Below are positions 13,382 to 46,440 of a stretch of 47,288 nucleotides of DNA, in pieces. The position numbers and the translations under genes are program-made. The notes beneath the pieces were generated by a model. The model did no database searches, was not told the DNA's origin, and was given only the letters and a program-made list of their open reading frames with translations. Position 1 is the stretch's first letter, and each line of letters starts with the position of its first letter. The DNA is taken from positions 1 to 47,288 of the IMG/VR virus record IMGVR_UViG_3300045116_000315; one strand, given 5' to 3'. The DNA comes from a virus.

Positions 13382-14614
13382 ATGGCTGGGGGCAGGCGTC
13401 TGAGCAACTACGTGGAGTCCTTCTGCGAGTTTGCGACAATCTACAACACCACTCCACTCTTCGCACGCTACGCCGCGCTCTGGATGATCGGCACGGTGGT
13501 CGGCCGCGCTGTGGGCATGAAGGCCCGCAACAACGACCTGCACCCGAACTTCTTCATCCAGCTAGTCGGCGGGCCGGGCACCGGCAAGTCGCAGGCGATC
13601 AAGAGCGTGCGTCGCATCATGCTCAAGGCGGTCAAGAGCGTTAGCCTCATCCCTGCTTCCATCACCCGCGCGGGCATGGAGGACTATATGAAGGGCAACC
13701 TTCAGCGTCGGCGCACGCCCGATGGCGCGATGCTGATGGCAAACGAGTGCCTTGGCCTGAGCGATGAAATGCAGGGCATCCTGCCGGATCAAGACCTTGG
13801 CCACCTGACCCTCTACAACATCCTCTATGATCTGCCGGGCCTGCACGTCGCCGTCACCCGCACGCACGGCGAGGTGCGGTTGGAGTCCCCATACTGCAGC
13901 TTGCTCACCGGCGCACAGCCCGCCTTCCTCGCAACCACCATGCCGGAGCAGGCGTGGGGCATGGGCTTCATGAGCCGCAGCATCATGGTCTTCGACCAGC
14001 CCCGCGCACGCAAGAGCATGTTCGCCGCCGTCGAGACCAACCCGAAGCTGGAAGCCGACCTCATCGCCGACCTCCGCCACATCCACGACAACCTCACCGG
14101 ATGGATGACGTGGAGCAAGGAGGCCATCGCCCTCTACGAGGAGTGGTTCGTGAAGCATGGCGGGCTGCCGATCCCGCAGGCCAAGCGCCTCGCCATGGGC
14201 TACAACAGCCGCCGCGAGCTCCACATGACCAAGCTGGCCATGGTGATCAGCATCGCCCGTAGCGATAGCCTCCGCGTGGAGCAGCAGGACGTTGCCGAGG
14301 CCATCAAGCTGCTGCTCTTCACCGAGGAGCGGATGAAGATGGTGTTCACGGAGATGAGCGCAACCGGCAGCGCAGTGGCCCTCGAGGACGCCCTCGACAT
14401 GGTCCGCAGCGCTACGCTGGAGGGCGGCGCCGTGGAGGAGGCGCAGCTGATCGACGTGCTCATGCAGCGGTTCCCGCCGACGCAAATCCACAGCATCATC
14501 GAGAACCTACTTGTCAGCCGCGCCATCCAGAAGGCGGATATGAAGCAGCACAAGTATATCGACGCCAAGGGCTTCAGGAAGTTTGTGGCGTCACCTCGGC
14601 CAAGCGGGCTGTAA
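13382..14614 (+). CDS. DUF3987-type replicative helicase/ATPase
   Basis: A 410-residue ATPase with Walker A GGPGTGKS (63-70) and an acidic Walker B-like segment GLSDEMQG around residues 125-132. The Arg-containing region that follows (TRTHGEVRLESPYCSLLTGAQPAF) is ordered as in DUF3987/phage primase-helicase C-terminal ATPases. The last 70 residues look like a winged-helix domain (VEEAQLIDVLMQRF, IHSIIENLLVSRAIQK). Directly follows the polymerase gene with a three-base gap; no DnaB- or T7-type helicase is seen elsewhere, so this is the likely replicative helicase. Its TAA stop lies inside the left arm of a perfect 14-bp inverted repeat. Confidence 0.75.
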   Translation: MAGGRRLSNYVESFCEFATIYNTTPLFARYAALWMIGTVVGRAVGMKARNNDLHPNFFIQLVGGPGTGKSQAIKSVRRIMLKAVKSVSLIPASITRAGMEDYMKGNLQRRRTPDGAMLMANECLGLSDEMQGILPDQDLGHLTLYNILYDLPGLHVAVTRTHGEVRLESPYCSLLTGAQPAFLATTMPEQAWGMGFMSRSIMVFDQPRARKSMFAAVETNPKLEADLIADLRHIHDNLTGWMTWSKEAIALYEEWFVKHGGLPIPQAKRLAMGYNSRRELHMTKLAMVISIARSDSLRVEQQDVAEAIKLLLFTEERMKMVFTEMSATGSAVALEDALDMVRSATLEGGAVEEAQLIDVLMQRFPPTQIHSIIENLLVSRAIQKADMKQHKYIDAKGFRKFVASPRPSGL

Positions 14615-14644
14615 TACAATTTCAAATCGCAATTGTATTACAGC
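14608..14644. repeat. 33-bp palindrome family, copy A; convergent terminator candidate
   Basis: GCTGTAATACAATT (14608-14621) and AATTGTATTACAGC (14631-14644) are perfect inverted repeats around a 9-base loop. The 33-base core 14610-14642 matches copies at 30538-30570 (29 of 33 on the opposite strand) and 41443-41475 (28 of 33). It sits between the convergent helicase and internal virion protein genes, so it may act as a bidirectional terminator, but conservation of the loop bases (TCGC) suggests protein recognition as well. Confidence 0.85.
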
Positions 14645-14652
14645 CTGCCCCG

Positions 14653-17600
14653 TCAGCGCTGCACGCCCAGCGCTTCCGTATACCTCATCACCTTATCAGC
14701 GTCGAAGCGGTCGAACAGGTCGCCTTCCTGCTCCCGCTTCATCCGAGTCTGCGCGCTCTTCAGCACGCTGCTCAGCGGCACGCTCGCCATAACCGCACGG
14801 TCGATGACGTTCTGCATTTCCCCGCTATCACCGCTCATCATCGCATCAGCATAGATGATGCCGAGGTTCTGCACCACAGCCCGTTCGCGCGTCTGATCCT
14901 CATAGAGCTCCCGCGCGGCGACTTGCTGCCGCTCGACCTCAAGCTGGTTCAGGCCCAGCGCGTGCATGATCTGCGTGGAGGGGCCCAGCCCCCTGACCTG
15001 CGGATACCCAGTCCCCATGCTCTTGATGTAGTCGCCCTCCAGACTGCTCACCGCCCGGAAGATGGCTCGCGGCGCCAGCGCATTCAGCATCTGATCCCGC
15101 ACGTTCGGGTTTCGGAGGGCGTTGATGTCCCCCGTACTCCCGATGTCCCATGCCGTGCCGATGGCCTTGCCCACAGCCTTCGCCCGCTCCAGGAACACGA
15201 AGTTGCCGAGGTTCGCAACCTCATTCCGCACATCTGTGCCGGGGATGGTGCTGCTTGCTTGCAGGCTCACGCCAAGGAACGCGGGCAGGCCGAAGTAGAT
15301 TTCGTCTGCACTATCGTGCCAGTTCTCTTGCAGCCACTGGAAGCTGCTTGGCGAGTCGCTGTGCCACCGGGCGAGGCCATCGGCCAAGGCAACCAGCGGC
15401 GTAGCGCCCAAGCCGCCCATGGCCAGCGCGCTTGCCCCTTGCCACATCAGCGGCGCGAAGCTTTCCCCTCGCATGGCCAGCCCGGCATACTGCGTCATCT
15501 GGTTGATGTAGTGGAACTGCCAGTTCTTGAACAGGCCGAACATGCTGCCCACAGGCCCAGTGAACATGCGGCTGCGGTCCACCACGCTATATCCGTAGTT
15601 GGTCACATGCACGCCGCGCTGCATGAAGCGATACAGGTTCTCACCCTCGAGACCGAAGTGCCCCTTGCCGACCTGATACATCGCAGCCGCACTGACCATC
15701 CGGCTATACTGCTCGCTCTTCTCAGCCCCATACGTCGCAAGGCGCTTGATGCCTTCCCAGCCGCCTTGGTTCTTGAAGGTGTCGCGCAGCGTGCTCGCGC
15801 TGGCACTTTGCGGCCCGACCCACTCGTCGACCTGACTGTGCTGCAGCGTGCCGTCCGTCGTCGCGCGCTCCAGAAACGACTTGAGCTCCGGTCCCGGATC
15901 GCGCAGCGCCTTGGTCGCGCTCGCCAGCACCTTGATCGGCGACATGATGCCAGCCATGCCGCGCACCTGCCCTGCGCCATCAATCTGCGGGACGAAGTGG
16001 TAATGCGCCGCCACCTCGGCCGCCGGAGCCCTTGTGATGTAGGCAATCGCCGGTAGCACCGTCTGCAAGGGCTGCAGCAGGTTCAGCACCGCAAATGTCG
16101 GGTTCGCAATGGCGAGGTTCCAGTTATACATCAGCGCGTTGGTCGCCTGCGCGATGCGCGTGGCAGGCTTGCCGCCGAGCACCTTGCCTAGCACCGGCTC
16201 CAGCGTCTTGTTCAGCACATTGGTGATCTGCCCCTCGATCCCCATGTACTGGTCAGCCTTGCGCATCAGGTCCGTATACAGCGTCGGATCGCTTTTGCTG
16301 AGGTTCATGGCCTCTTGCCCCCAGCGCTGCCGCCATGCGTACTGCCCAGCAAAGCTATAGATGCGGCGGTAGTGGTCCTCGGTCTGCTTCACCACGTCGT
16401 CCAGCGAATACTCCCTATCCGCACTGCCCCGAACGCCTGTGCGTTCCGTCGTCAGGCTCTTCGGCGCAGTCGGCGTGCGCAGCCGTCCGATGCCCCCACG
16501 ACTTTGCCCCAGAGCATCCATGCGCTTCATCGCCGCCTCGACGACATCCTTCGCTTCCCCGCTCTTCCCGATCCTGTCCGCCACCATCTGATTGATCGCG
16601 CTGAGGTTGTCGAGCTCCGCAGCGTGCTTGGCGCCCTTCATATAGTCAGCGCCGATGCTCCACTTCAGCCCCCTATTCTGCGCCTCTTCCAGCACAGCCT
16701 TGGCCTCCGCCTGCGCCGCCCCGGCATTCTTGCCCGTTGCCAGCCACTGCACCTTGCCGTGCTGATCCACGACCTGCGTGTACCAGTCGCCCTTGAAAAC
16801 CCTCGGCAGCACGTACCCATCGAGCAGCTGAAACTTGCCCTCCAGGTCCGTGTTCTTGAACACCGGCAGCACTTCCTCCCACACGCTGCGGTTGATCGCC
16901 TGCAGCGCTTGATAGGTCTCCGTGGCCTTCTTGCTGATCAGCCCATCCGCCGTCAGCTTAGCAAGGTCTTCCGCCGGGGTCTGCGACATGGCTGCCTTCA
17001 CCACCAGCTGGAACCCCCTCGGGTCCTCCTTCGCCAGTTCGCCCCACAGCTGACTAACCGGCCGATGCCCTTGGAAGCCGCTGACGAAGTCCATCTGCCC
17101 CCGGACGGCAGCAGAGGGCGTGGACCTAAAGCGGGCATCGCCCTTGATGATCTTGCTAACCTTCTCCCCTGCCATCAGCTGCGTGCCGCGCAACAGTCCA
17201 AAGAGCCGCCCGAACACCGGGTTGCGAGCCTCCTTGAACATCGTCGGCTGGAACCAGTCGTAGAACGTATCAGCCAGCGCCTTGGCCTGCGCGCTGTCGC
17301 TCAGCCCGGTCTTCTTCATCAGGCGGTCGGCCATCTGCGTGGTCCAGGCCTTCTTGCCTAGCCGCTGCATATCGCTGGGGTCTTTCGGCGACATGGCGGC
17401 CAGCGCCTCGTCCATCCCCTTGTTGAACACGTCGTCGCGCAGCGCAGGCTGATACGCTTCGCGCATCTTGCTCCAGGCCTTGACCGTCTGCTCGGCCACA
17501 GCGTGCTCACCGCCGACAAACCGCTGAGGCTTATCCGTCATGCCCACGAACCAGATATCGCCGTCTGCCACCTGCAGCTGACCGAACCCCTTCTTGCCCT

Positions 17601-18741
17601 CGGTCTCTGCCACGCCGCTCCGCAGGCGCTTCGCCACGACCCACAGGCCGCTATCCGCCTGCCTGCCCAGCAGCACACCCGGCGCAACCGCTTGCAGCCC
17701 CGGCGCCTCATCAAACGCCTTAGCCAGCGTTCCCGCCGCCCGATCGCTCTTCACCGTGACCTGCCGCGGATAGCGTACCGTGCTCGTCAGATCGCCCACA
17801 TCCTTGAAGCCCAGCGCACCCAGCACTTCCTGCTGCTGCCCGAAGTCCAGCGTCTTGGCATCGTTTGCGCTGCCCTCGGCGAGGAAGCGCCGGTCGAGCC
17901 CGGTCTTCACGCCCTTGCTACCATCAGCCCGGAACAGCACATCGACCAGCGAGTCCGTCTCCGGATTGCCGCCCTCCAGCTGCGTGATATACCGCGCCTT
18001 CGCTCCGTTCGGCACGTTGTCCGCAGGCTTCTCGAACAGCACCCGCGTGTCCAGCGCTTGGCGAACATCGGCGATGTCCATATTCCCTGTGACTTGTGCG
18101 GACGGCGCATCAGCCAGTCGACGCTCGAATGTCGGCGCCAGCCCCATGTCCGCGCCGATCACACGGCCCTGCTGCGGCAGCAGCTTTCCGCCCGCCCTGA
18201 AGAAGCCGCCGATCCCGCCGAAGCCTCCAGCCAGAACCGTGCTCAGCCCCACATCGGCCAGCAAGTCCCCATAGTTTTCCTCCGGCGCAGTGGCGAGGCC
18301 AACACCCAGCCGTCCAATCTCAAACGGCGCAAACTTGACCATCTCACGCACAGCGCCATATGCCACCGGATTGTCCAGCGCCGTGATGCCCTTCTTGCTC
18401 AGCCCGAAGCCTTTGCCCGCCAGCTCAGTCCACTTCTCCACCCGCTTGGCCAGTGCAGGCACTTTCGCAACTGCGTACTCCATGCCAGCATACGGCACAA
18501 GCGCGGCACCCAGCTCGCTGACCACACCAGCAACCGGGTACTCGTTGCGGAACCGTTGCGCCTCAGGCGTAGCATCCTGCCCGAACATCTCAGGGATGGT
18601 GGACAAGGCACTGCTGAAGAAGCCGCCCAGCGGGCCGGGGTCCAGTGCTCCGGGCGCCCTTTCTGGCACCGCCGTAACAGCACTGGCCCTATCTGCCTGC
18701 TGTGCCCCCTGCCATTGCTTCATCCAGTCGTCTTGCGGCAT
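14653..18741 (-). CDS. Large internal virion/ejection protein, 1362 aa
   Basis: The largest gene and the last of the late operon. Such very long, mostly helical proteins at the end of podovirus structural operons (T7 gp16-like in role) are packed in the head and ejected into the host to form the DNA-translocating channel. The N-terminus is Ala/Gly-rich with hydrophobic patches (residues about 80-185). The remainder is long helices with scattered hydrophobic stretches, and no lytic domain is obvious here; that is in the adjacent 690-residue protein. The ATG at 18741 lies one base after the stop of that gene. Assigned by size, position and composition, not by a family motif. Confidence 0.7.
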   Translation of the reverse strand: MPQDDWMKQWQGAQQADRASAVTAVPERAPGALDPGPLGGFFSSALSTIPEMFGQDATPEAQRFRNEYPVAGVVSELGAALVPYAGMEYAVAKVPALAKRVEKWTELAGKGFGLSKKGITALDNPVAYGAVREMVKFAPFEIGRLGVGLATAPEENYGDLLADVGLSTVLAGGFGGIGGFFRAGGKLLPQQGRVIGADMGLAPTFERRLADAPSAQVTGNMDIADVRQALDTRVLFEKPADNVPNGAKARYITQLEGGNPETDSLVDVLFRADGSKGVKTGLDRRFLAEGSANDAKTLDFGQQQEVLGALGFKDVGDLTSTVRYPRQVTVKSDRAAGTLAKAFDEAPGLQAVAPGVLLGRQADSGLWVVAKRLRSGVAETEGKKGFGQLQVADGDIWFVGMTDKPQRFVGGEHAVAEQTVKAWSKMREAYQPALRDDVFNKGMDEALAAMSPKDPSDMQRLGKKAWTTQMADRLMKKTGLSDSAQAKALADTFYDWFQPTMFKEARNPVFGRLFGLLRGTQLMAGEKVSKIIKGDARFRSTPSAAVRGQMDFVSGFQGHRPVSQLWGELAKEDPRGFQLVVKAAMSQTPAEDLAKLTADGLISKKATETYQALQAINRSVWEEVLPVFKNTDLEGKFQLLDGYVLPRVFKGDWYTQVVDQHGKVQWLATGKNAGAAQAEAKAVLEEAQNRGLKWSIGADYMKGAKHAAELDNLSAINQMVADRIGKSGEAKDVVEAAMKRMDALGQSRGGIGRLRTPTAPKSLTTERTGVRGSADREYSLDDVVKQTEDHYRRIYSFAGQYAWRQRWGQEAMNLSKSDPTLYTDLMRKADQYMGIEGQITNVLNKTLEPVLGKVLGGKPATRIAQATNALMYNWNLAIANPTFAVLNLLQPLQTVLPAIAYITRAPAAEVAAHYHFVPQIDGAGQVRGMAGIMSPIKVLASATKALRDPGPELKSFLERATTDGTLQHSQVDEWVGPQSASASTLRDTFKNQGGWEGIKRLATYGAEKSEQYSRMVSAAAMYQVGKGHFGLEGENLYRFMQRGVHVTNYGYSVVDRSRMFTGPVGSMFGLFKNWQFHYINQMTQYAGLAMRGESFAPLMWQGASALAMGGLGATPLVALADGLARWHSDSPSSFQWLQENWHDSADEIYFGLPAFLGVSLQASSTIPGTDVRNEVANLGNFVFLERAKAVGKAIGTAWDIGSTGDINALRNPNVRDQMLNALAPRAIFRAVSSLEGDYIKSMGTGYPQVRGLGPSTQIMHALGLNQLEVERQQVAARELYEDQTRERAVVQNLGIIYADAMMSGDSGEMQNVIDRAVMASVPLSSVLKSAQTRMKREQEGDLFDRFDADKVMRYTEALGVQR

Positions 18742-18742
18742 G

Positions 18743-20815: not shown

Positions 20816-20817
20816 CT

Positions 20818-21810: not shown

Positions 21811-22192
21811 CGCCCGTCCCTTCGACCTGCCAGACCATGTTCCATGCCTCAGGCTTGGCTCGTATGCGGACCATAGCCTGCATGAGCCGCTCGCTAAACA
21901 CGGTCGTTTCCACCGTGTCACACCCCATGTCCGAGGCGAGCCTGTCCATCACGTCCCTGAAGCTGCGCATACGCCAGCCAAAGCCGTCGATGGCCAGCAC
22001 CCGCACGTAGAGGCGCGTACCCACCGTCTCCACGGCGAAAGCGCCGCCGTCACAGGCGAACGCCATCCAGCGCTTGCTGAGCAACTGCTCGGCAATTTCC
22101 GCAGGCGTCCAGCCTCCGGGTTCGCCTCCCGCGCAGAGTGCCTGCCAGTGCTCGTCGCTGAGCAACAGCGGATTGAGCCAGACTAGCTGCAT
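21800..22192 (-). CDS. Putative GNAT-fold-like protein, 130 aa
   Basis: The order of a Trp-rich N-terminus, FACDGGAFAVETVG, LYVRVLAIDGFG and a helix MRSFRDVMDRLASDMGCD, then strand-helix VETTVFSERLMQAMVRI, resembles GNAT-like small proteins often encoded among podovirus tail and internal protein genes. Acetyl-CoA-binding residues are not clearly visible, so enzyme activity is doubtful and a structural role is possible. ATG overlaps the upstream stop (TGATG). Confidence 0.5.
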   Translation of the reverse strand: MQLVWLNPLLLSDEHWQALCAGGEPGGWTPAEIAEQLLSKRWMAFACDGGAFAVETVGTRLYVRVLAIDGFGWRMRSFRDVMDRLASDMGCDTVETTVFSERLMQAMVRIRAKPEAWNMVWQVEGTGDGQ

Positions 22193-24219
22193 CAGACTTC
22201 CACCGTAGAAATGCCAGTGCGCTGCACCGTAGGGTTGTCCAGCCCGCCGCCGCGACTGAGGATCGCTTGGAAGCTGCGCGTCGCCGTGCTGCGTTCAGTA
22301 TCCGTCCGCGTGAAGCTGTCGCCCGTCTGCGTCAGGATCGTGGCGCTACCGGGCGAGTCACCTGGGATCGGAGCAATGCCGTCGAAGGTCTGCGTGGCAG
22401 TGTTGATGGTGATGGTATCCAACACCACTCCGTTCTTGGCGACGGATAGCTGCACGCCAAGCCCCGACAGCGTGCGGCTGCCGCGATAGCTGCCACTCCC
22501 GTTGTCTGTGGCGTTGTACGCAGCCGCATCGGCCTCGAACGTGTTGCGACCGTCCAGCGTGGCGGGATAGCGCGCAGAACCAAAGTTCTGCGTCCTGCTA
22601 TACGACCAGCTTGCAACGATCTGTATCTCGCCGCCGTTGCTCGAAATGTTTCCTGTATCCGCCGTGACGTTAGCAGCCGCGCTGGGGTTCTGCACGCCCG
22701 AGCGCAACTGCCCTGCAAGGAAGACGCCGCCGAAGTAGGCGCTGCCCGCAGTGTTCATCCACACAGTACCGTTGACCTCGGAGCAGTTTGCCATGCTGGC
22801 CTGCGTCGGGCCAAACCACAGGAAGAACTGATTGTTCGTGCCAAAGCCTCTGCCGAGGATCAGCTGGCTCCCGCCAACAGTGAAGACGATCGTGCCGCTG
22901 CCCATGTCGATGCGCGCGTTCAGCGTGCCCGCCGTCATCTTGTCAAAGCTGAGGTTGGCGATCTTGGCATTGGTGATTGCAGCATCGGCGATCTTCACGT
23001 TGCTAATGGCTGCATCCGCGATCAGCGCAGTGGTAATCGCCGCATTGTCAATGTTCGCTGTGCCGATGGCCGCAAGTGCAATGAGCGCTCGACTAATAGC
23101 CGCTCCCTCAATATACGTGCCGATGTTACCAGCAGTTAGCAGGCTCAGCGCCGCCAAAGTGCCGAAGCCGCTTGTTCGGCTGCGATCAATCGAGCCGTTG
23201 ACGTAGTTGAAGTTTGGAAGCGCGTTGTAAACCTGCGTAGCAAGGTCAACAGCGTTGGCGCTGGACAATGCCCCGAAGCCTGTCAGAAGCGGCGAGCCAT
23301 TGGCAAGACTGCTCAATGCTGCAAGAGCGCCGAAGCCTGTGGTCTGGCTGCGGTCTACGCTGTTCTGCCCTGCAAGAGCGCCGAAGCCTGTCAGGTTCTC
23401 GCTGCCAAGCGCCAGTGCGCCGATTACCTGCGTGGCAAGGTTGACCTTGCTACCGCTGGCGAAGGCGATGCTGCCATCAGCATTGTAGATGGTAATGTTC
23501 CGGCCTTCGATGCTGCCGTCCTTAGTGATCCTCCAGCCATCTTTGGTCGTGTCGTTCCAGCCATAACTCTGGATCAGGTTGCCGATCTTCGCATTGATGA
23601 TCTGACCGTCGATGATGTGCGCCGAGCCGACCGACAAATTGGCGATCTTCGCGCTGGTGATCGCAGCATTGGCGATCTTCGCGCTGTTCACAGCGAGGTC
23701 AGCGATCTTCGCCTCGACGATCTGCGCCTCGCCGATCAGCGCACTGACGATGGTGGCGTCAGCGATCTTCGCGCCGAGGATCGTCGCGTTGGCGATCTTC
23801 GCGTTGACGATGGCTGCATCACGCATCTTCGCCGTGCTGACGGCAAGGTCCGCCAGCTTCAACTCGCCCACGGCGCCGTCGAGCAGCTTGTCGATGCTGA
23901 CGCTCAGGTCCGCCAGCTTCGCCGTCTCGATGGCTGCGTTAGCGATATTGCCTGTGTCGATCTGGAACAGGTCAGCAGCCTGCGGCGGATCGAACTGTGA
24001 GTTGCCGAGGAAGAGCTCCGCATCCGCTTGGCTCAGCCAGACCATCTTGTAGCCGTCAGGCATGGTGATGGAAGTGGCAGGCCCGCCGCCTCCGCCCCCA
24101 CCACTCGCAGCCGTCTGCACCGGCGCGATGAGGTCGCCGAGCCCGGCCTCATCCATCGCCTTGTTCAGCGCGCGCGCATAGTCCTTCCAGTCAGCATAGG
24201 ACTCAGGATTAGGCAGCAT
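22192..24219 (-). CDS. Tail fibre-like protein with decapeptide repeats, 675 aa
   Basis: Residues about 1-90 form a head with a Gly-rich linker (GGGGGGG near 40-46). Residues about 96-215 hold some twelve ten-residue repeats of the type AKIANAAITS, a pattern common in phage fibres and in the C-terminal part of J-like host-specificity proteins. A middle block repeats TGFGAL (about 277, 294, 313, 350), then a second set of about six decapeptides covers 372-427. The last 250 residues are beta-rich and end in a tail with QRTGISTVEV. The repeats suggest a trimeric beta-fibre shaft. It is encoded right after the nozzle protein, so it is probably a tail-attached fibre; the receptor is unknown. Confidence 0.7.
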   Translation of the reverse strand: MLPNPESYADWKDYARALNKAMDEAGLGDLIAPVQTAASGGGGGGGPATSITMPDGYKMVWLSQADAELFLGNSQFDPPQAADLFQIDTGNIANAAIETAKLADLSVSIDKLLDGAVGELKLADLAVSTAKMRDAAIVNAKIANATILGAKIADATIVSALIGEAQIVEAKIADLAVNSAKIANAAITSAKIANLSVGSAHIIDGQIINAKIGNLIQSYGWNDTTKDGWRITKDGSIEGRNITIYNADGSIAFASGSKVNLATQVIGALALGSENLTGFGALAGQNSVDRSQTTGFGALAALSSLANGSPLLTGFGALSSANAVDLATQVYNALPNFNYVNGSIDRSRTSGFGTLAALSLLTAGNIGTYIEGAAISRALIALAAIGTANIDNAAITTALIADAAISNVKIADAAITNAKIANLSFDKMTAGTLNARIDMGSGTIVFTVGGSQLILGRGFGTNNQFFLWFGPTQASMANCSEVNGTVWMNTAGSAYFGGVFLAGQLRSGVQNPSAAANVTADTGNISSNGGEIQIVASWSYSRTQNFGSARYPATLDGRNTFEADAAAYNATDNGSGSYRGSRTLSGLGVQLSVAKNGVVLDTITINTATQTFDGIAPIPGDSPGSATILTQTGDSFTRTDTERSTATRSFQAILSRGGGLDNPTVQRTGISTVEV
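23580..23960 (-). repeat. DNA repeats encoding fibre decapeptides
   Basis: The motif GCGATCTTCGC recurs at roughly 30-base steps across this stretch (each unit codes for KIA(N/D)A-type decapeptides on the minus strand). Sequence identity between units is imperfect, so length changes by recombination or slippage are possible but not shown. Confidence 0.75.
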
Positions 24220-30537: not shown

Positions 30538-30570
30538 TGTAACACAATTGCGACTTGGAAATGTATTACA
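30538..30570 (-). repeat. 33-bp palindrome family, copy B
   Basis: On the minus strand this matches copy A at 29 of 33 positions, including the arms TGTAATACA and CGCAATTGTGTTACA. It lies in the 64-base gap between the portal stop (30582) and the start of the small gene at 30517, so it may mark a promoter, operator or transcript boundary inside the late operon. Confidence 0.85.
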
Positions 30571-34330: not shown

Positions 34331-34806
34331 CAGGGCACCAATAGCGTCGGCGTCGGGCGGCCCCACTGCCACCCCCAGCCTGCTTCCATAACATCAGCAA
34401 AACTCAGGAGCGGCTTATGAGCCAGACCACGAACGTTGCCAACCACCATAAGAGGACGAGTGTCAACGCCAAACGCCGAGCGAACAACGCTGAGGTAGAG
34501 TCCGAGGAGCTTTTCATCCCTGCCGTCCCTCCAGTTCTTCTTGACCTCGATCACGAGCGCCTCGCCGCGCTCCCGATTTAGCAGCACGGTGTCGGGGCTG
34601 CACAGCCTCTGCGACTTGACCGCCTTGAACCATGGCTCCACCATAAGCTGCCAGCCCGGCCACTGCAAGCCCGCGTTCAGGCGTAGGATTTTATAGATGC
34701 GCTTGTGGTAGCGGATGCCCGCCAGCATCGCCTTGTTCGTCGTTGTGCTGTTGGTGCTGGCACCCATGCGCGTGTCCGTCAGCCGCCACTCTTCAACAGG
34801 CAGCAT
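34330..34806 (-). CDS. PD-(D/E)XK nuclease between terminase genes
   Basis: A 158-residue protein with a clear PD-(D/E)XK core: a helix GIRYHKRIYKIL (about 30-41), strand WQLMVEPWF, then SPDTVLLN (P71, D72) and ALVIEVKKNW (E87, K89). The remaining helices, with RDEKLLGLYLSVV, complete a minimal restriction-endonuclease fold. It starts in a TGATG overlap with terS and ends in another with terL, so it is made together with the packaging enzymes. It could resolve branched DNA before packaging, assist terminase cutting, or degrade host DNA; I cannot choose among these by sequence. Confidence 0.75.
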   Translation of the reverse strand: MLPVEEWRLTDTRMGASTNSTTTNKAMLAGIRYHKRIYKILRLNAGLQWPGWQLMVEPWFKAVKSQRLCSPDTVLLNRERGEALVIEVKKNWRDGRDEKLLGLYLSVVRSAFGVDTRPLMVVGNVRGLAHKPLLSFADVMEAGWGWQWGRPTPTLLVP

Positions 34807-35474
34807 CAGCCCTCGTCCTCCTCGGCTACAGGCTTCGGCAGGCTCTCGACCACCTTATGCCTCGGCACGATGTATTCCGCGCTGCTTGCTCGCGCTGCTG
34901 CGTTGAGCTCAGCCAGACGCGCATGGTCGATTTGATGGCTTTCGCTGGTGACGTGGTGACTGCTGCTGGGCCCATGCCCGCTTCGATCCAGCCCCAGCTT
35001 CGCCACGCCGACGAGATCGCTGACGCTCAGGTCCTCGTCCGTGCGCACCTTCTTCTCAATCTTCTCGACCGCTTCCATCGCCACAGTCCGCAGCTTCTCG
35101 GTCAGCACCATCGTGTTGCTGCCCATCTGCATCTTGTAGAGGCCCAGCAGCTCCTTGAAGGCAGGGCCGTTCTGCAGGATGCTGATGTACTGCGGCGTGT
35201 AGCCAGTGATGGTGGCGACCAGCCCCGGCGAGACCCCGCTGGCCAGCAGCCGCGCCACTGCATGATGCCGCTCGCGCAGCTTCTTCAGGTCGGCCGGATT
35301 GTCCACCGGCTCAGCCGCAGCCGTCACGACCTCTTGCGCGTGCTGCTCGGCCTCGTCGACCTTCTGCTTCAGCTCACCGCTGGCAAGCGCCGCGAGGTCG
35401 CTGGGCTCGAGAAGTCCCTCGATCGTGCAGGTGATGATCGGCATGGTGTCCACGCCGCTGAGGTCTAAGTCCAT
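34806..35474 (-). CDS. terS: Terminase small subunit
   Basis: A 222-residue protein encoded upstream of terL. Residues about 68-102 contain a helix-turn-helix (HAVARLLASGVSPGLVATITG, then YTPQYISIL), the DNA-recognition part of TerS. A helical oligomerisation region follows (KTVAMEAVEKIEKKV-like), then a flexible His/Ser-rich C-terminal tail. The start is the ATG at 35474, preceded by AGGAGCAGC; an earlier in-frame Met lacks this site. Together with terL it recognises pac or cos and starts packaging. Confidence 0.8.
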   Translation of the reverse strand: MDLDLSGVDTMPIITCTIEGLLEPSDLAALASGELKQKVDEAEQHAQEVVTAAAEPVDNPADLKKLRERHHAVARLLASGVSPGLVATITGYTPQYISILQNGPAFKELLGLYKMQMGSNTMVLTEKLRTVAMEAVEKIEKKVRTDEDLSVSDLVGVAKLGLDRSGHGPSSSHHVTSESHQIDHARLAELNAAARASSAEYIVPRHKVVESLPKPVAEEDEG

Positions 35475-35529
35475 TGTGCTGCTCCTGTGCGAGGGTTGTG
35501 GCACGAGTGGCGGGCAGGCTGCAAGCGGA

Positions 35530-39903: not shown

Positions 39904-39955
39904 GCGTAGGACAAGGCGGGCAGGCCTGGGGGAATTGGCCTGCGAAGGCCTTGCT

Positions 39956-40029: not shown

Positions 40030-40091
40030 CCCGCCGACGGAAGGGTGCCCTTTGTGGGGAGGAGGCCACCCCCTAGGCACCCACCCCCAGC

Positions 40092-40118
40092 AACGTTGCG
40101 TTACAATCTAGCAACGTT
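40092..40118. repeat. Inverted repeat AACGTTGC / GCAACGTT
   Basis: Perfect 8-bp inverted repeat (40092-40099 and 40111-40118) with an 11-base spacer containing GTTACAAT, which resembles a half-site of the 33-bp palindrome family. Operator-like spacing. Confidence 0.7.
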
Positions 40119-40285
40119 TGCGTGGCGCAGCCGTTTCGCGCATGTTGGGCATCAGCAACAATTTGTTACAAAGCCTCATCACTTTTTGCTGGAACCTTGG
40201 TGCGACTCGTGTATTCATATGCATACCGACACCGAGTCGGAACGAAGGGGTGGGTGGTTCCACCCCATGACGAAAGGCCAATGTT

Positions 40286-40888: not shown

Positions 40889-40950
40889 GCCAGCCGGGGG
40901 CGGTGCGATCGCCCCCCACCATTTCCCTGCACCTCACGAAAGGCAAAATC

Positions 40951-41187
40951 ATGGCACGCAAGAGCACCCCGACTCCCGTTGACGCCAACACGCTGACCGC
41001 CGCTTATTACGAGACCGCCCGACTAGTGCGCGGCATGGCTGAAGCGGCCGCATACGAGGGCAACGTCGATCAGGTTCACTCGCTTGTGACTGAGGAACGG
41101 CGGTTGATGAACACTGCGCGGCTGATGGAGCGGCGCTACGGTGGAAGTCTGCTTACCCGCGATCCCTACGCAGCACCTGCCTACTGA
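40951..41187 (+). CDS. Hypothetical protein, 78 aa
   Basis: Not recognised. Start ATG at 40951 after GAAAGG; the longer upstream frame is not supported. Basic N-terminus, then a helical body (YYETARLVRGMAEAAAYEG, EERRLMNTARLMERRYGG). Followed 26 bases later by a strong intrinsic terminator, so it ends the transcription unit that begins at 40286. Confidence 0.7.
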   Translation: MARKSTPTPVDANTLTAAYYETARLVRGMAEAAAYEGNVDQVHSLVTEERRLMNTARLMERRYGGSLLTRDPYAAPAY

Positions 41188-41213
41188 CCCGTTTCAACCT
41201 GCAACCTATCGAG

Positions 41214-41240
41214 CCCCCGCCTAGCAAGCGGGGGTTTTTC
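41214..41240 (+). terminator. Intrinsic terminator
   Basis: CCCCCGC (41214-41220) pairs perfectly with GCGGGGG (41228-41234) around CTAGCAA, followed by TTTTTC. A classical rho-independent terminator placed right after the 78-residue gene, separating it from the next plus-strand unit. Confidence 0.93.
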
Positions 41241-41755
41241 TTTGCCCAGCGTTTCCGCACCCTGCGCCGCCGGGGTTTCGGAAGGGCCCCAGCGTGGCGG
41301 GAAATTTGCTCAGGCGAGGCGCGGGCGGCTAGAACATGCTTGATCCACTAGGCTCCGCTTGCCCGGCTAGCCGCCGCATAACATAATGCCCCTTTTCGCC
41401 CAGCTTTTCGCCGTATTGCTGCCCAGCCTGAAGGGCGGCTCGTGTGTTACAATTGCGAGTTGGGATTGTATTACATCCTACTTCCCATCAGCCTGCGCGA
41501 CCTCTCTCTCCCTTCAGGTGCTTTTGTGTTGTAATACCCCCTCTTTTTAAAAATTTTTTTCAGATACTATAGAGCACAAAGCACAGCACAGCCTGAAGCC
41601 ACCAGCCTCACCCGGGCGTGTTACGCCCCGCAACGCCCCCATATTGACCACTATGTTATGCGCCACTAAGCCCGCCTAGCGGAGCGCAGTGGAGCAACCC
41701 GCCCCAACCGCCCGCCCTTGTCCCACGGCCCAACCCCTCCCTCCGGAGCCCCGCC
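41241..41755. promoter_or_regulatory. Structured, AT-rich intergenic region; origin or early control candidate
   Basis: About 515 bases with no convincing gene. It contains a third relative of the 39956 repeats (41296-41315), a 9-bp inverted repeat GGCGGCTAG/CTAGCCGCC (41324-41332 with 41367-41375), copy C of the 33-bp palindrome (41443-41475), TTGTAATACCCC (about 41529), and a strongly AT-rich tract at 41541-41570 with TTTTTAAAAATTTTTTT followed by TACTAT (41565-41570). The AT tract is exceptional in this GC-rich genome and could be a DNA-unwinding element or promoter. Confidence 0.6.
41443..41475 (-). repeat. 33-bp palindrome family, copy C
   Basis: On the minus strand it matches copy A at 28 of 33 positions, with arm TGTAATACAAT and the conserved inner block CTCGCAATTG. 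Lies in the middle of the non-coding region before the gene at 41756. Confidence 0.85.
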
Positions 41756-42400
41756 ATGCCCATTCCCCTTCCCCCGCGCTTCCACCTTCCCCTCCTCGCC
41801 GCAACGGAGCGCTTCCGCTACCTCGCACGGCTTGGCCAGCCCATTCCTGCCAGCCACATCCTCGACCTCGCCCGAGAGTTAGCAGAGGAAGGCAAAGACG
41901 CCGATCCCCCCCAGCAGCTAGTTCGTGACCTCGCCCGCAGCCTCCGCATCCTCGCAGCCTTCATCCTGCCGCTTTGCGCCCTTCAGCGGCCGCTTACGTT
42001 AACTGATCTCGACAAGCACTTTGCCGGCCTCGGCCACAAGATGAAGCAGCACCTGGAGGCCCAGCAGCGTCTCCGCATTGCCAACCGCGAAGCCCGCAGC
42101 AGCCGTCCCCTCACCACACCCACGCATACACGAGCGGGCGTGCCCCTCACCCCGCGCCAGCAGCAGCAGCGCGAGGCCAGCAACCGCGCAAAGCGAGCAA
42201 AAGCCCAGCAGCGCCTTGTTGCTGAGCTCAACGCCGATCCCCTTTTGCAAGCGCACAAGCAACGCGAAAGCTATCGCGGCACAGCCTTGCTCCCAATCAA
42301 CGCTCCGCACCTACTCCCCCTGCTTCTCGACAGAGACGGCAACGTACTGCCCTTGCCTGACTGGGCACTGCACGGCGTGGCACCGGCGGCAGACGTATGA
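41756..42400 (+). CDS. Hypothetical basic protein, 214 aa
   Basis: Not recognised. Start ATG at 41756 after TCCGGAG. Helical, Arg/Gln/Ala-rich in the middle (TPRQQQQREASNRAKRAKAQQRL) with a more ordered C-terminus (LLPINAPHLLPLLLDRDGNVLPL). The basic helical part could bind nucleic acid. First gene after the AT-rich region. Confidence 0.65.
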   Translation: MPIPLPPRFHLPLLAATERFRYLARLGQPIPASHILDLARELAEEGKDADPPQQLVRDLARSLRILAAFILPLCALQRPLTLTDLDKHFAGLGHKMKQHLEAQQRLRIANREARSSRPLTTPTHTRAGVPLTPRQQQQREASNRAKRAKAQQRLVAELNADPLLQAHKQRESYRGTALLPINAPHLLPLLLDRDGNVLPLPDWALHGVAPAADV

Positions 42401-42454
42401 CACCCTGCACGCGTATGACACCGAATACACCGCACACCAGCCAAACACCGCCCA

Positions 42455-42482
42455 TTGCCAGCCGCGGCCAAATCGCTATAAT
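42455..42482 (+). promoter_or_regulatory. Sigma70-like promoter
   Basis: TTGCCA (42455-42460) and a consensus TATAAT (42477-42482) separated by 16 bases, 32 bases upstream of the gene at 42514. The -10 box is embedded in AAATCGC-TAT-AATTGTGATCA, a half-copy of the 33-bp palindrome with three extra bases, suggesting shared regulation. Confidence 0.75.
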
Positions 42483-42513
42483 TGTGATCAGGCAACACAG
42501 AAAGGCCACTCTC

Positions 42514-42768
42514 ATGACCCGCTTTAGCGACACCAACGCTGACCTCCGTCGCATCCTCTCCGCTCCCGTCGTCCGCAGCGCTAACGTGACGCTGTTGGGC
42601 GAAGGCGACCATACCAACAGCAATGGCCAGCCCTTCACCGTTGCCTGGACCTCGCGCATCATCGGCGGTCCCGGCTGGTGCTGGAGCGATAGCGACGGCG
42701 AGCCGCATGGCCCCTTCAACACCGCCCACACAGCCTACCTCGCAGGCTATCACAAAGGAGACTTCTGA
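42514..42768 (+). CDS. Hypothetical protein, 84 aa
   Basis: Not recognised. Start ATG at 42514 with AAAGG upstream, directly downstream of the promoter at 42455. Mixed beta structure with Gly and Trp (RIIGGPGWCWSDSDGEPHGPF). Next gene begins one base after its stop. Confidence 0.7.
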   Translation: MTRFSDTNADLRRILSAPVVRSANVTLLGEGDHTNSNGQPFTVAWTSRIIGGPGWCWSDSDGEPHGPFNTAHTAYLAGYHKGDF

Positions 42769-42769
42769 C

Positions 42770-43000
42770 ATGGCCCGCAAACGCACTAGCCTCAGCACAA
42801 CGTCCGTCCCCGGCCTCGGCGCGAGGTTTGAGCTTCGCCAGCCCGATGGCACTACCCTCGCCGTCCGCATCGTCGAGGGCAGCACCTGTATCATTAGCTT
42901 TGCGACCGACACGGGCTGTAACAATCTCATCGAGATGACCAAGCACCAGGCTTTGTTCCTCACGGAGTTCCTCGTAGCGAAGGTAGGGCTGCTCAAGTGA
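42770..43000 (+). CDS. Hypothetical protein, 76 aa
   Basis: Not recognised. ATG at 42770 with AAAGGAG upstream. Basic start (MARKRTSLSTTS) followed by beta strands (ARFELRQPDG, LAVRIVEG, CIISFATD) and a helix (HQALFLTEFLVAKVG). Ends in a GTGA overlap with the following gene. Confidence 0.65.
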   Translation: MARKRTSLSTTSVPGLGARFELRQPDGTTLAVRIVEGSTCIISFATDTGCNNLIEMTKHQALFLTEFLVAKVGLLK

Positions 43001-43287
43001 CCCGCTTCCTCATCATCCCCCAGCGCCGCGAGCCCGGCCAAGGCTGGCTTGACACCCAGCCCCATCGCGCCCAGCGCTGGATGGTCCGCTCCCCGCGCAA
43101 CGTCGACCTCGTACCCTTCACCAGCAAGCGCGATGCCGAGGCCTTCCTCGCCCGACGCAAAGCGCTTGCTGGCCCGCCGAACGCCCTGCGCCAGAGCGTC
43201 GGCCGCATCTTCACCTTCCAGCGCCAGTGCCCGCCCGCGCTTCCCCCTTCGCAGCTGCTCGCCCAAGGCAGCAAGCCCCGCTCGTAG
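42997..43287 (+). CDS. Hypothetical basic protein, 96 aa
   Basis: Not recognised. GTG start overlapping the previous stop. Arg/Pro-rich, with a small alpha/beta core (RFLIIPQRRE, WMVRSPRNVDLVPFTSKRDAEAFLARRK). High positive charge could point to nucleic-acid binding. Followed by a 42-base gap with AAGGAA before the next gene. Confidence 0.6.
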   Translation: MTRFLIIPQRREPGQGWLDTQPHRAQRWMVRSPRNVDLVPFTSKRDAEAFLARRKALAGPPNALRQSVGRIFTFQRQCPPALPPSQLLAQGSKPRS

Positions 43288-43329
43288 CCGAGCCCAGCTG
43301 TTCCCTCCACCACAGCTAAGGAACCCCAC

Positions 43330-43692
43330 ATGCCCCCGACGCTCACCGACCAGCAGTGGCACCTCGCCGCCGACTGCATCAACGACAGCGGCGATGCCCT
43401 CCTTCGCGGCATCACCCTCCAGCTCCGCAACCTCACCGGCTATCCGATCGCAGAGGTGCCCGAGCCCACCGTCCGCTTCCGCACCGCAGATGAGGCCATG
43501 AACAGCCTCAACGCCATGACCCTCCACGTCAACGCGATTAGCATGTTGCTGGACGAGGTCTTCCGCTTGCAGATTGACCGCGACGCTGCGACCAAAACCG
43601 CGCAGTTCTTCGTCAGCGATCTGCACTCGGTCCTTCACGCCCGCTGCGGGCTGTGCCTCTTCGAGGTCACGGACGGAGGGCAGGCACAGTGA
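43330..43692 (+). CDS. Hypothetical helical protein, 120 aa
   Basis: Not recognised. ATG at 43330 after TAAGGAA. Helical with amphipathic segments (QWHLAADCINDSGDALLRGI, NAMTLHVNAISMLLDEVF) and a C-terminal part with two cysteines (HARCGLCLFEV). Stop overlaps the next GTG. Confidence 0.65.
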   Translation: MPPTLTDQQWHLAADCINDSGDALLRGITLQLRNLTGYPIAEVPEPTVRFRTADEAMNSLNAMTLHVNAISMLLDEVFRLQIDRDAATKTAQFFVSDLHSVLHARCGLCLFEVTDGGQAQ

Positions 43693-44000
43693 GCACTTCC
43701 ATCTCTTGGCTGGCCCTCCCCTTCGCGCAGGCCAACGGCAAGCATCAGCTCAGCTACGTGCGCGTCAACGCCATCGTCGCTGTCACGCCCAAGGTCAAGG
43801 CCGAGCTGCTCCCCGGCGACGCCCCATGGCAAGAGCGCCAGACCGTCACCACAGAGGGCAGCTACGTCTTCGTCGCTGGCGGCTCAGGCGAGGACGGCGA
43901 CAGCAGCTTCTTCACCTCCCTCCTCCCCGAGCGCGTGCTTGAGCTGATCACTAACCTCAACGCGCGCCTTGAGCACAACGCCAGCTATGGCCTGAAGTAA
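43689..44000 (+). CDS. Hypothetical protein, 103 aa
   Basis: Not recognised. GTG start at 43689 in a GTGA overlap; the 12 codons before it are ignored. Beta-rich with clear strands (SWLALPFAQ, SYVRVNAIVAVTP, GSYVFVAGG) and a C-terminal helix (PERVLELITNLNARLEHN). Directly precedes the SF1 helicase. Confidence 0.65.
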   Translation: MSTSISWLALPFAQANGKHQLSYVRVNAIVAVTPKVKAELLPGDAPWQERQTVTTEGSYVFVAGGSGEDGDSSFFTSLLPERVLELITNLNARLEHNASYGLK

Positions 44001-44012
44001 GGACTTTGTAGT

Positions 44013-45686
44013 ATGACCTCTTTCTCCCCCACCCCCGAGCAGCAGGCAATCTTCTCCACCTTCGCCACCTCCACCGCCGACGTCATCATCGATGCCAAGG
44101 CAGGCGCAGGCAAAACCTCCACCGTCATCGCCGGCCTGCAGCACCTCTCCGGCACCAGCCTCCTCATGGCCTTCAACAAGGCCATTGCTGAGGAGATCAA
44201 GCGCAAGGTCGGCGACGACCTGCCCTTCCACCTCAAGGCCATGGTGCAGGTCAGCACCGTGCATGCGCATGGCCTCAGCGCTCTCAAGGCCGGCGGGCAC
44301 AAGCAAGCCCAAGTGCAAGGCGGCAAGCTTGCCTTCCTCTGCAAGGACATGCTGCGCGACCGGCGCGACAGCGACCCCGCCCACCTCAACGCGCGGCACA
44401 TCCGCTCCCTCACCAGCATGGCCAAGAACAGCGGCTTTGGCCTGACCGCCTGTGACGGCAGGGAGCAGTTTCCTGCTTTCAACTCCCGCGGCTCGTGGCA
44501 CCAGCTGATCGAGCACTTCAACCTCGACACGGAGCTCGAGGGCGACTACAGCGCAGACGACCTCGTGGACGATGCCCTGGAGCTCCTGCAGCTTTCCAAT
44601 CGCAAGCTGGGCATGATCGACTTCGACGACATGGTCTACCTGCCCCTCCTCCTTTCCCTGCCCCTCCGCCTCTACGACAACGTGCTCATCGACGAGGCCC
44701 AAGACATCAACGCCACCCGGCGCGAGCTCGCCTTCAGGTCGCGCAAGCCCGGTGGCAGGCTCATCGCGGTCGGCGACCCTCATCAGGCCATCTACGGCTT
44801 CACCGGCGCAAGCGTCGACAGCCTCGACCGCATCCGCCAGCGCAGCACCAACTCCGTCACGCTGCCCCTGAGCATCTGCTGGCGCTGCGCCGACGCCATC
44901 CTCGTCGAGGCACGCAAGATCGTCCCCGGCATCCAGACTGCACCGAGCAAGGTCGGCAAGGGCACTGTGCGGAAGATGGCCTTCCGACAAGAAGCGCTGC
45001 CTGCAGCTGGACACCAGCGTGAGCCGCTGCCTGCACAGGACTTCCTAGCTGCGCCAGCTCCCGGCGACGCCATCCTCTGCCGGCTGAACAAGCCGAACGT
45101 CGCCGTGGCCCTCGGCCTCCTTCGCCGCGGCACGCCGGCCAAGATCGAGGGCCGTGACCTTGGCAACAAGCTCCTTGACCACGTCAAGCGCGCAGACGAC
45201 CTCTATGCCCACCACCCCCTCGTCGAGCAGATCGACGGCCTCGAGCACTACCGCGAGCAGGAGGCCATGCGCCTCGCCAACAAGAAGCGCGAGGCCGCGG
45301 CCGAGCTCCTCAAGGACGAGGTCGACGCGGCCATCCTCCTCATCGAGCGCTGCCTCGAAACCGTCGGGCCGAAGGCAGGCTTCAACGACCTCGACGCCCT
45401 CGTCAAGAGCCTGTTCGGCGATGACGTCAGCAGCCGTCAGGTGGTCACCCTTGCCTCCATCCACAAGGCCAAGGGGCGCGAGTGGCCGCGCGTCTACCTG
45501 CTGGGCTACCACGACTACCAGCCCTTCTGGAAGGCGGAAGAGGGCTGGCAGTTGGAGCAGGAGTACAACCTCATGTATGTTGCCTGGACCCGCGCGGAGG
45601 AGGAAGCCATCATCGTCCTCGGCGCGCAGTCCGCCATCAACAAGGGGCTGCACCGCCTAGCGCCCCTGCAGGCGCAGGTGGCCTGA
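44013..45686 (+). CDS. UvrD/Rep-like SF1A helicase, 557 aa
   Basis: The full set of SF1A motifs is readable: Q-motif-like TPEQQAIF, Walker A AKAGAGKT (28-35), motif Ia STVHAHGL, motif II VLIDEAQD (224-231), motif III GDPHQAIYGF, motif IV-like CWRCADAIL, motif V ASIHKAKGREWPRVYLLGY and motif VI YVAWTRAEEEA. The 2B domain is reduced, as in short phage members. ATP-driven 3'-5' unwinding of DNA is the family activity, probably serving replication restart or recombination. It is the only well-known enzyme of the right-hand gene block and lies far from the other replication genes. Confidence 0.93.
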   Translation: MTSFSPTPEQQAIFSTFATSTADVIIDAKAGAGKTSTVIAGLQHLSGTSLLMAFNKAIAEEIKRKVGDDLPFHLKAMVQVSTVHAHGLSALKAGGHKQAQVQGGKLAFLCKDMLRDRRDSDPAHLNARHIRSLTSMAKNSGFGLTACDGREQFPAFNSRGSWHQLIEHFNLDTELEGDYSADDLVDDALELLQLSNRKLGMIDFDDMVYLPLLLSLPLRLYDNVLIDEAQDINATRRELAFRSRKPGGRLIAVGDPHQAIYGFTGASVDSLDRIRQRSTNSVTLPLSICWRCADAILVEARKIVPGIQTAPSKVGKGTVRKMAFRQEALPAAGHQREPLPAQDFLAAPAPGDAILCRLNKPNVAVALGLLRRGTPAKIEGRDLGNKLLDHVKRADDLYAHHPLVEQIDGLEHYREQEAMRLANKKREAAAELLKDEVDAAILLIERCLETVGPKAGFNDLDALVKSLFGDDVSSRQVVTLASIHKAKGREWPRVYLLGYHDYQPFWKAEEGWQLEQEYNLMYVAWTRAEEEAIIVLGAQSAINKGLHRLAPLQAQVA

Positions 45687-45687
45687 G

Positions 45688-46038
45688 ATGGTCTTCGTCC
45701 ACGCAACCATCCTCGGCGGCTTGCCAGTCGTCGCCGAGGTCTGGTTCTCCGGCCCCGACTTTGACGGCGAGTACGACGCCGGTGTCGTCGGCCTCTACTG
45801 GCGCAAGCGCGACGGCAGCAAAGGTGCACCGCTGTCCCAACGCCTCATGGACAAGATCGAGGCCAAGGATAGCTGGTGGCAATCCGACGTTACGGAGCAG
45901 GCAAGTGACTGGCTTGGCTACCATTGCCCAACGCGCACCCGTAGCAGGCACCAATCTCCGTACACCCTTGACAACCCTGAGTGGATCGAGGAAGGGGAGT
46001 ACAGCCCCGAGTACAAGCTTTTGAATGGAGATCGCTGA
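45688..46038 (+). CDS. Hypothetical protein, 116 aa
   Basis: Not recognised. Starts immediately after the helicase stop. Beta-rich start (VFVHATILGGLPVVAEVWF), Trp-rich middle (KDSWWQSDV, SDWLGY) and acidic C-terminus. The stop overlaps the next ATG (TGATG). Confidence 0.65.
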   Translation: MVFVHATILGGLPVVAEVWFSGPDFDGEYDAGVVGLYWRKRDGSKGAPLSQRLMDKIEAKDSWWQSDVTEQASDWLGYHCPTRTRSRHQSPYTLDNPEWIEEGEYSPEYKLLNGDR

Positions 46039-46328
46039 TGTCTCGCCGTCGCCACAGCAACGCCCACGGCTTCTCCATCTATCGCGGGCTGCCCACTCAG
46101 GCCCGCCGTATCCAGACCCTGCTCTTCGGGCAGTGGCTGATGCTTCACCATGGCGCAACCCCTCTGCACACCACTAACGAGTACGAGGTTGCGCGATGGA
46201 GGCGCGCGGACGGCACCGTCTGCATCATCTACAAAAAGGCCAACGGCGAGGTAACTTGGACCATCCCTGCTGCAGAAGACTATCGCGCCTTCCTCGCAGT
46301 AATGGCTCAGGCAAAACGCAGAGGTTGA
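46038..46328 (+). CDS. Hypothetical basic protein, 96 aa
   Basis: Not recognised. Basic start (MSRRRHSNAHGF), then an alpha/beta body (TLLFGQWLMLHHGA, YEVARWRRADGTVCIIYK) and a helical end (DYRAFLAVMAQAKRRG). Ends the unit that includes the helicase; followed by the repeat-containing promoter region. Confidence 0.65.
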   Translation: MSRRRHSNAHGFSIYRGLPTQARRIQTLLFGQWLMLHHGATPLHTTNEYEVARWRRADGTVCIIYKKANGEVTWTIPAAEDYRAFLAVMAQAKRRG

Positions 46329-46340
46329 TAGACAAGGCAA

Positions 46341-46358
46341 ATTGTGGGACAATCCCAT
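46341..46358. repeat. Degenerate palindrome, related to copy D
   Basis: ATTGTGGGACAATCCCAT contains two interlocked inverted repeats, ATTGT/ACAAT and TGGG/CCCA. It shares ACAATCCCAT with copy D 57-75 bases downstream. It lies just after the stop of the gene at 46038-46328. Confidence 0.6.
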
Positions 46359-46384
46359 AGCGCCCCTCGAGATAGTAACAGTTA

Positions 46385-46413
46385 TTGACACCTGAAGGGT
46401 TTCAAGGAATAAT
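46385..46413 (+). promoter_or_regulatory. Sigma70-like promoter overlapping palindrome D
   Basis: TTGACA (46385-46390, consensus) and AATAAT (46408-46413, five of six) are 17 bases apart, about 70 bases upstream of the gene at 46481. The -10 box is the left end of palindrome copy D (46408-46440), so a protein bound there would block RNA polymerase or its start site. Confidence 0.75.
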
Positions 46414-46440
46414 ACAATCCCATCTTGAAATTGTCCCACA
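46408..46440 (+). repeat. 33-bp palindrome family, copy D
   Basis: Agrees with copy C (its minus-strand reading) at 26 of 33 positions, with AATACAATCCCA and AAATTGTCCCACA as the two arms. Covers the -10 box and likely start site of the promoter at 46385. Confidence 0.75.

Follow-up and report, generated by a model that had tools for sequence, protein, structure and literature searches.

In Cluster A mycobacteriophages such as L5 and Bxb1, the phage repressor has sites throughout the genome, called stoperators, which are situated at promoters and in short intergenic spaces, as outlined in the reports on this system (PMC6550527, PMC9283540). According to the same outlines, the stoperator motif is alike within a genome and differs between relatives along with the repressor. 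Here we describe a 33-bp palindromic element that occurs at four sites (A, B, C, and D) in a viral genome, IMG/VR record IMGVR_UViG_3300045116_000315 (positions 1 to 47,288; this whole stretch of 47,288 bases is referred to as the window), and in five related phages. Like stoperators, the element forms repeated sites in short intergenic gaps (19/19 sites in six genomes), some of which are at promoters (site D of the window and of relative G003). Stoperators are 13-bp asymmetric sites, number more than 20 per genome, are oriented with transcription, and are bound by a monomeric repressor. In contrast, the genomes studied here have two to four palindromic 33-bp sites each, site A lies between convergent genes in 6/6 genomes, and neither such a repressor nor any other was recognised among the proteins scanned (the protein scans covered part of the genes). 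Because stoperators are asymmetric and oriented with transcription, we place the phage sites outside the stoperator class, although they may work in a similar way.

Operators of ribbon-helix-helix proteins are another close case; those of omega contain heptad repeats, as outlined in PMC4803016. With the operators of omega, Arc, CopG, AmrZ, and NikR the phage system shares short repeated boxes and a small candidate protein with a putative N-terminal strand (TVTIRLP). It differs from them in having two boxes 24 bp apart, a genome-specific core, and several places per genome. Known ribbon-helix-helix operators are mostly local to one promoter. The matS site, which is bound by MatP and organises a replicon region, is 13 bp long according to the outlines in PMC3330122 and PMC8523169. 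In size it is comparable to one arm of the phage element. The matS sites are palindromes with an RNY (purine, any base, pyrimidine) centre; they are single, not paired at 24 bp, and their sequence is different from that of the phage element. No member of the MatP family was found among the proteins scanned against Pfam. The titles and abstract beginnings of the listed open-licence papers on phage palindromes, ribbon-helix-helix proteins, and the phages Kuura and Tiera contain no description of the element.

We are highly confident that the element is a protein-binding DNA site, and we class its copies as operator or stoperator-like sites with nested palindromes. Our leading explanation, still a tentative one with a probability of about 0.45, is that they are operators and transcription boundaries of one phage-encoded dimeric protein. 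This would be a compact system of control through several sites, in a group of environmental phages that has been little studied. The six genomes provide natural specificity variants of possibly a single protein-site pair. Should the sites indeed act as boundaries, they would be the palindromic equivalent, with a ribbon-helix-helix protein, of the asymmetric stoperators of mycobacteriophages.

Site A of the window (14610-14642, plus strand; boxes at 14610-14618 and 14634-14642) lies where the primase gene and a late gene of 1362 amino acids converge, between their 3' ends. Site B (30538-30570, minus strand; boxes at 30538-30546 and 30562-30570) is just 3' of the portal gene and 5' of the capsid gene block. 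Site C (41443-41475, minus strand; boxes at 41443-41451 and 41467-41475) is roughly central in a non-coding region of 568 bp. Site D (46408-46440, plus strand) has a right box at 46432-46440 and a degenerate left box at 46408-46416 (AATAATACA), which doubles as a promoter -10 box. A preliminary description of the sequence had reported this repeated palindrome, and its observation is confirmed with all four coordinates and strands. The copies are AT-rich, as reported (21-25 of 33 bases), in a genome of 63.5% GC. The reported sharing of 26-29 bases out of 33 holds for four of the six pairs (A-B 29, A-C 28, B-C 27, C-D 26); copy D is more distant from A and B, with 22 shared bases in each pair.

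A genome scan with a position matrix made from the four copies, as had been proposed, gave no further full site. The copies, which match by construction, score 48-57 on their own strands, and the best other place scores 12.7. The scan added a single half-site, TGTGGGACAATCCCAT (46343-46358, plus strand), which starts 65 bp before D and is absent from the earlier list. With a 31-base pattern derived from the copies, three of them (A, B, and C) are recovered in the window at no more than three mismatches, whereas 100 shuffles yield nothing. The form TGTNNNACA(A/T)T-N11-A(A/T)TGTNNNACA is exact in A, B, and C, and D deviates from it at two left-box positions. The TCGC loop is present in the same three copies, and D has TTGA instead. 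It is also true that D forms no full hairpin: 8 of 16 arm positions pair in D, versus 14 in A, 12 in B, and 11 in C. That the sites occur only in gaps is strictly so for C, but the final 5 bases of the primase gene fall within A, B has 10 bases in common with an open reading frame (ORF) started at TTG, and D sits inside another TTG-started ORF (46385-46798). Both TTG-started ORFs are probably over-long start calls.

The five related phages are about 51-82% identical to the window in primase, portal, and polymerase. Four of them (G001-G004) were obtained through searches with primase and portal, and G008 came from a scan of viral contigs with the site pattern. The sites of G008 are thus partly selected; its kinship is backed by its proteins and by the polymerase search, which also reached it. 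Together with the window (G000), the relatives have 19 sites at four syntenic positions. Site A is present in 6/6 genomes and site B in 4/6; C is found in 5/5 and D in 4/5 of the genomes that hold the corresponding region, which seems to be missing from G001, a 38.7-kb fragment. At position A the replication genes converge on a late gene of 1348-1483 amino acids, and the site directly follows the primase gene everywhere save in G004, where an ORF of 94 amino acids intervenes. Site B directly follows the portal gene, C is roughly halfway along an extended non-coding gap, and D is ahead of the block leading into the replication genes. According to simple gene calls, 12 of the 19 sites are clear of ORFs, four overlap a neighbour by 5-10 bases, and three are inside ORFs, which we judge to have over-long starts (D of the window and of G003) or to be spurious (C of G004). 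All 19 sites are therefore intergenic if small overlaps with ORF ends and over-long starts are allowed for.

Each site consists of two inverted TGT-N3-ACA boxes, whose starts are 24 bp apart, and a 15-bp core. Over the 38 arms TGT and ACA are nearly invariant, the two inner bases are A or T and then T (A in the four G002 arms), and the triplet never has T first and never has A last. Judged by this composition, each box is palindromic in itself. Both boxes are intact in 15 of the 19 sites, all with the 24-bp spacing; the remaining four have one imperfect box. Only G002 (52 bp) and G008 (14, 15, 15, 39, and 39 bp) have other pairs of boxes no more than 60 bp apart, and 28 boxes are found outside the sites in the six genomes versus about 24 expected (summed). 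G008 has a third TGT-N3-ACA box 15 bp from the nearer box at D (L155:10131-10178) and at C (L155:16958-17005), and its site A has a one-mismatch box at the same distance.

The cores are much more alike within a genome than between genomes (identity 0.81 versus 0.47; 0/2000 label shuffles reached this value). Across genomes, sharing a position does not make sites more alike than others (0.48 versus 0.53). The effect is weaker for the triplets (0.60 within versus 0.44 between genomes; 2/2000 label shuffles as high), with GTT or its reverse complement AAC in all four arms of G002 and all six arms of G008. The TGT/ACA positions have an identity of 0.95 both within and between genomes. Thus the reported conservation of the loop on a par with the arms is valid inside one genome, D excepted, but not between genomes, where the core changes and the boxes stay. 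Such co-variation would be expected if a single changing protein were followed by all sites of a phage; alternatively, gene conversion could have made the sites alike.

A promoter-like sequence, TTGACA-17-AATAAT (46385-46413, plus strand), with 11 of 12 consensus matches, overlaps site D of the window: its -10 box is the first six bases of D, where the left box reads AAT in place of TGT. A second one, TTGATA-17-GACAAT (46325-46353, plus strand; 9/12), has its -10 box within the extra half-site 46343-46358. In G003 a looser scan gave TTGACA-19-TGTATT at the same place, so that D is on a -10 box in two genomes; a stricter scan, which allowed spacers of 16-18 only, found none there. The standard promoter scan found nothing around A and B of the window and one weak match near C, whose -10 box precedes the site by 61 bp. 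When all 19 sites were scanned more loosely, without a shuffle control, scattered matches of 8-10 out of 12 appeared in addition to the 11 at D; among them is TTGTCA-19-TGTAAT overlapping site A of G003. The sites also hold TAATAC, which resembles a T7-like promoter. This possibility was set aside because the sites are symmetric and, among the proteins scanned, none was recognised as a phage RNA polymerase. From these scans, action as a simple operator is plausible for D but scarcely for A or B.

The explanation that we prefer is as follows. Each 33-bp element would bind one phage-encoded dimeric protein, with one symmetric dimer per box, which suits a self-palindromic TGT-N3-ACA box with A/T-rich inner bases; at a distance of 24 bp two dimers would be placed side by side. 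The 15-bp core would add genome-specific recognition. The most likely reader is a ribbon-helix-helix-like protein encoded at 3172-3423. At D the bound protein would cover the -10 box and shut off the early/replication block, including its own gene. At A, B, and C, which share no promoter, it would act as a roadblock or boundary that limits read-through between gene blocks, for which the stoperators of Cluster A mycobacteriophages, where bound repressor halts elongation, are a precedent (PMC9283540, PMC6550527). Limiting of read-through fits all four sites; nevertheless, we regard the roadblock role as doubtful, more so than the explanation as a whole. The sites, their positions, the geometry of the boxes, the co-variation within genomes, and the promoter overlap at D are observed; binding by this protein, repression, and the block of elongation are what we infer.

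The candidate protein has 83 amino acids, and its gene (3172-3423, plus strand) is in the gene block downstream of D, with which it would form one operon. Homologues are present in 6/6 genomes, with invariant residues including T10, R12, L13, P14, G16, G26, S30, and R34. When viral contigs were scanned with one conserved peptide pattern, the five relatives alone contained the protein; the phage set of GenBank yielded no match. Shared ancestry also accounts for this co-occurrence with the sites. We compared protein distances with core distances for 24 proteins, one of 25 having been dropped because of too few aligned columns. The candidate was first (rho 0.64, the next being 0.54; Mantel p 0.007; partial rho 0.50, p 0.015). 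In stoperators the motif follows the repressor; here the core varies by genome and the candidate tracks it best of 24 proteins, or second best without G001, but the triplets are not tracked. The preliminary description had named two potential binders. For the ribbon-helix-helix protein, presence in all genomes and the best core tracking are indirect support, and the lack of triplet tracking and the weak fold matches speak against; we put the chance that it binds the sites at about even. The other, the presumed terS (34806-35504), which has no PHROG match, tracks the core weakly: it came 20th of the 24 proteins by raw correlation (rho 0.27) and third by partial correlation (0.25). The structure model of the candidate has an extended N-terminus followed by two helices, with predicted local distance difference test (pLDDT) values of 84-92 by blocks for residues 11-50. 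Among its 18 PDB hits, all with E > 1, are eight that we take to be ribbon-helix-helix proteins (AtaR twice, TacA2, PutA, Arc, CdbA, MatP, and AmrZ) and five that are presumably homeodomains. The profile search of solved structures gave no usable hit.

A number of findings weigh against our explanation. The candidate matches Pfam RHH_1 with an E-value of 0.073 in one of the six family members, and an unrelated tail-protein family matches better (0.03, two members); its best PHROG is Arc-like (0.14, 1/6 members). Its model has no strand and a mean pLDDT of 70, and none of the 18 PDB hits reaches an E-value of 1 or lower. The co-variation test is based on six genomes and 15 non-independent pairs, and the ranking took in only proteins recognisable in all six genomes. 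Without G001 the candidate (0.66) is behind a head-tail adaptor-like protein (0.73), and its correlation with triplet distances is -0.10, the best of the 24 proteins reaching 0.13. Site B was not found in G002 and G008, nor D in G002. The promoter of G008 is just downstream of D and not on it, and D of G004 has only a weak promoter match on the opposite strand, with the -35 box in the site. Among the proteins scanned, none was recognised as the product of a lysogeny gene, so the role of a lysogenic repressor is unsupported. Finally, the A-sites pair fully in 4/6 genomes, which makes an additional hairpin role possible at A.

The sites could instead be transcription terminators or RNA hairpins, as A and B are close behind stop codons and some of the copies fold well. 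Of the nine sites whose RNA was folded and compared with shuffles, A of the window (-10.2 kcal/mol, z -6.7) and A of G001 (-17.1 kcal/mol, z -4.7) are clearly stable and B of the window is fairly so (-7.0 kcal/mol, z -2.9). The remaining six, including the weakly folding C and D of the window, have z from -1.6 to 0.2, so that seven of the nine are above -3. At the TGT/ACA positions, the two arms are complementary in 16-19 of the 19 sites. The three triplet positions form Watson-Crick pairs in 9, 8, and 9 sites, or in 13, 11, and 13 if G-U pairs are counted. Whole triplets are paired in 7/19 sites and in two more with G-U, but stay unpaired in 10/19; compensatory changes thus do not preserve the stem. 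Moreover, 0/19 sites have a T-tract (five T in eight bases) on either side, Rfam has no match for the element, and a hairpin of the ordinary intrinsic-terminator type is present elsewhere in the window (41211-41237, plus strand, after gene 40903-41187). We therefore reject terminators and RNA hairpins as a very improbable explanation. The preference of the preliminary description for a protein-binding site over a terminator is supported by the unpaired triplets and the missing T-tracts, even though A and, to a lesser degree, B still fold well. The nearly constant boxes, the genome-specific core, the often unpaired triplets, and the absence of T-tracts make it most likely that the element is recognised as DNA by a protein that acts in trans and is probably encoded by the phage.

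Among the explanations that also assume bound protein, the main rival is a structural or replication role, because the region of C looks like a replication origin. Protein at the sites would then help to initiate or regulate replication at C, and it would organise the divergently transcribed arms, or keep them apart, at A, the point where both arms of transcription converge. For comparison, an iteron-type origin has short direct repeats and an AT-rich tract in non-coding DNA. The origin-like region of the window (41188-41755) has an inverted repeat of two 49-bp arms, 76% complementary, which flank C (41340-41388, plus strand, and 41649-41697, minus strand), and an A/T tract at 41544-41560 (plus strand), with a T-rich tract at the matching place in the four relatives holding the region. 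In all, 5/5 genomes have C between inverted-repeat arms, which are 42-78 bp long and 71-83% complementary, with a T-rich tract alongside; short repeats are clearest in G004 as a series of 9-bp repeats (neither feature has a chance control), and the C region has extra single boxes in 3/5 genomes. Nevertheless, B and D are at neither origin nor terminus, D is on a promoter in two genomes, and the cumulative GC skew shows no switch at C or A in three genomes; we consider this role unlikely. An origin, which the preliminary description had suggested, would account for the surroundings of C but not for A, B, and D; nothing pointing to a packaging signal, its other suggestion, turned up, no dedicated test having been made. 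The sites could also bind a host regulator, each phage fitting the version in its own host: such boxes could suit several dimeric regulators, and differing hosts could also account for differing cores. A phage-encoded reader is simpler, given that the sites agree within a genome and related phages differ strongly. The scan of viral contigs gave one GC-rich match outside the family (L058), beside a bacterial-looking gene, and this match may be due to chance, no estimate having been run. We find a host regulator improbable. Equally improbable is a variant in which a small dimeric protein bridges paired boxes at borders (the origin-like region, the convergence point, the early promoter, and the head-gene border) and folds the compact circular genome into transcription and replication domains, specificity being switched by changing the core and an orientation-free triplet in all sites together. 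Sites of recombination or of mobile elements (dimer resolution, a miniature transposon) are the least probable of all, with hardly any chance of being right. The 33-bp element with inverted arms and a spacer does resemble the core sites of tyrosine recombinases, but none of the proteins scanned was recognised as a recombinase or an integrase, and the element keeps the same positions from genome to genome, unlike mobile elements.

The window has a 127-bp repeat at both ends, as does G003 (127 bp), and G002 has one of 99 bp; judging by these repeats, they are probably assembly overlaps of circular maps. The window encodes an SU10-like portal and major capsid protein, the large subunit of terminase, DNA polymerase A, a protein with a uracil-DNA glycosylase domain, a PD-(D/E)XK nuclease, a primase-like protein, and a UvrD-type helicase. 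The functions of DNA polymerase are apparently divided between two genes at 10381-13378: the first product has the uracil-DNA glycosylase domain and also matches a polymerase PHROG, and the second has the polymerase A domain. A single gene at 8598-10088 fuses a ParB N-terminal domain with a DNA methylase domain and is kept in 5/5 relatives. Within a tail-fibre-like gene (22192-24219) there are repeats at 22958-23863 spaced by 30 bp, some by 15 bp.

The pattern scan that led to G008 gave 104 stretches of viral contigs, 103 of which were examined. The other one, L010 (G005, 4271 bp), has a B site identical to that of G003 and was excluded from the counts of 19 sites. Most of the stretches are AT-rich and look like chance matches; of the 11 with a GC fraction of at least 0.56, 10 come from four of the five relatives and one is the outsider L058. 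The sites of G002 do not fit the scan pattern exactly. The genome scan for polymerase gave one distant match with 25% identity. When the distant cultured phages Kuura, ABTNL-3, and Tiera, and also L164 and L174, were scanned with the pattern, no exact site appeared, and the best match (ABTNL-3) had two mismatches; a de novo dyad search found no clusters in the three cultured phages, by a method that also missed two of four positive controls. Another contig, G006, was not used: it has a one-mismatch match near a ribbon-helix-helix-like ORF, but its helicase is 32% identical, and the control pattern scores 2 versus 3 in it. At L158:5393-6385 of this contig, the one-mismatch site has a box-like sequence 24 bp before it and is near an ORF with a stretch that looks ribbon-helix-helix-like by eye. 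In Vibrio phage ABTNL-3, an inverted repeat with 12-bp arms (L176:23195-23240), noticed by eye, lies between convergent gene blocks, which is the position of site A.

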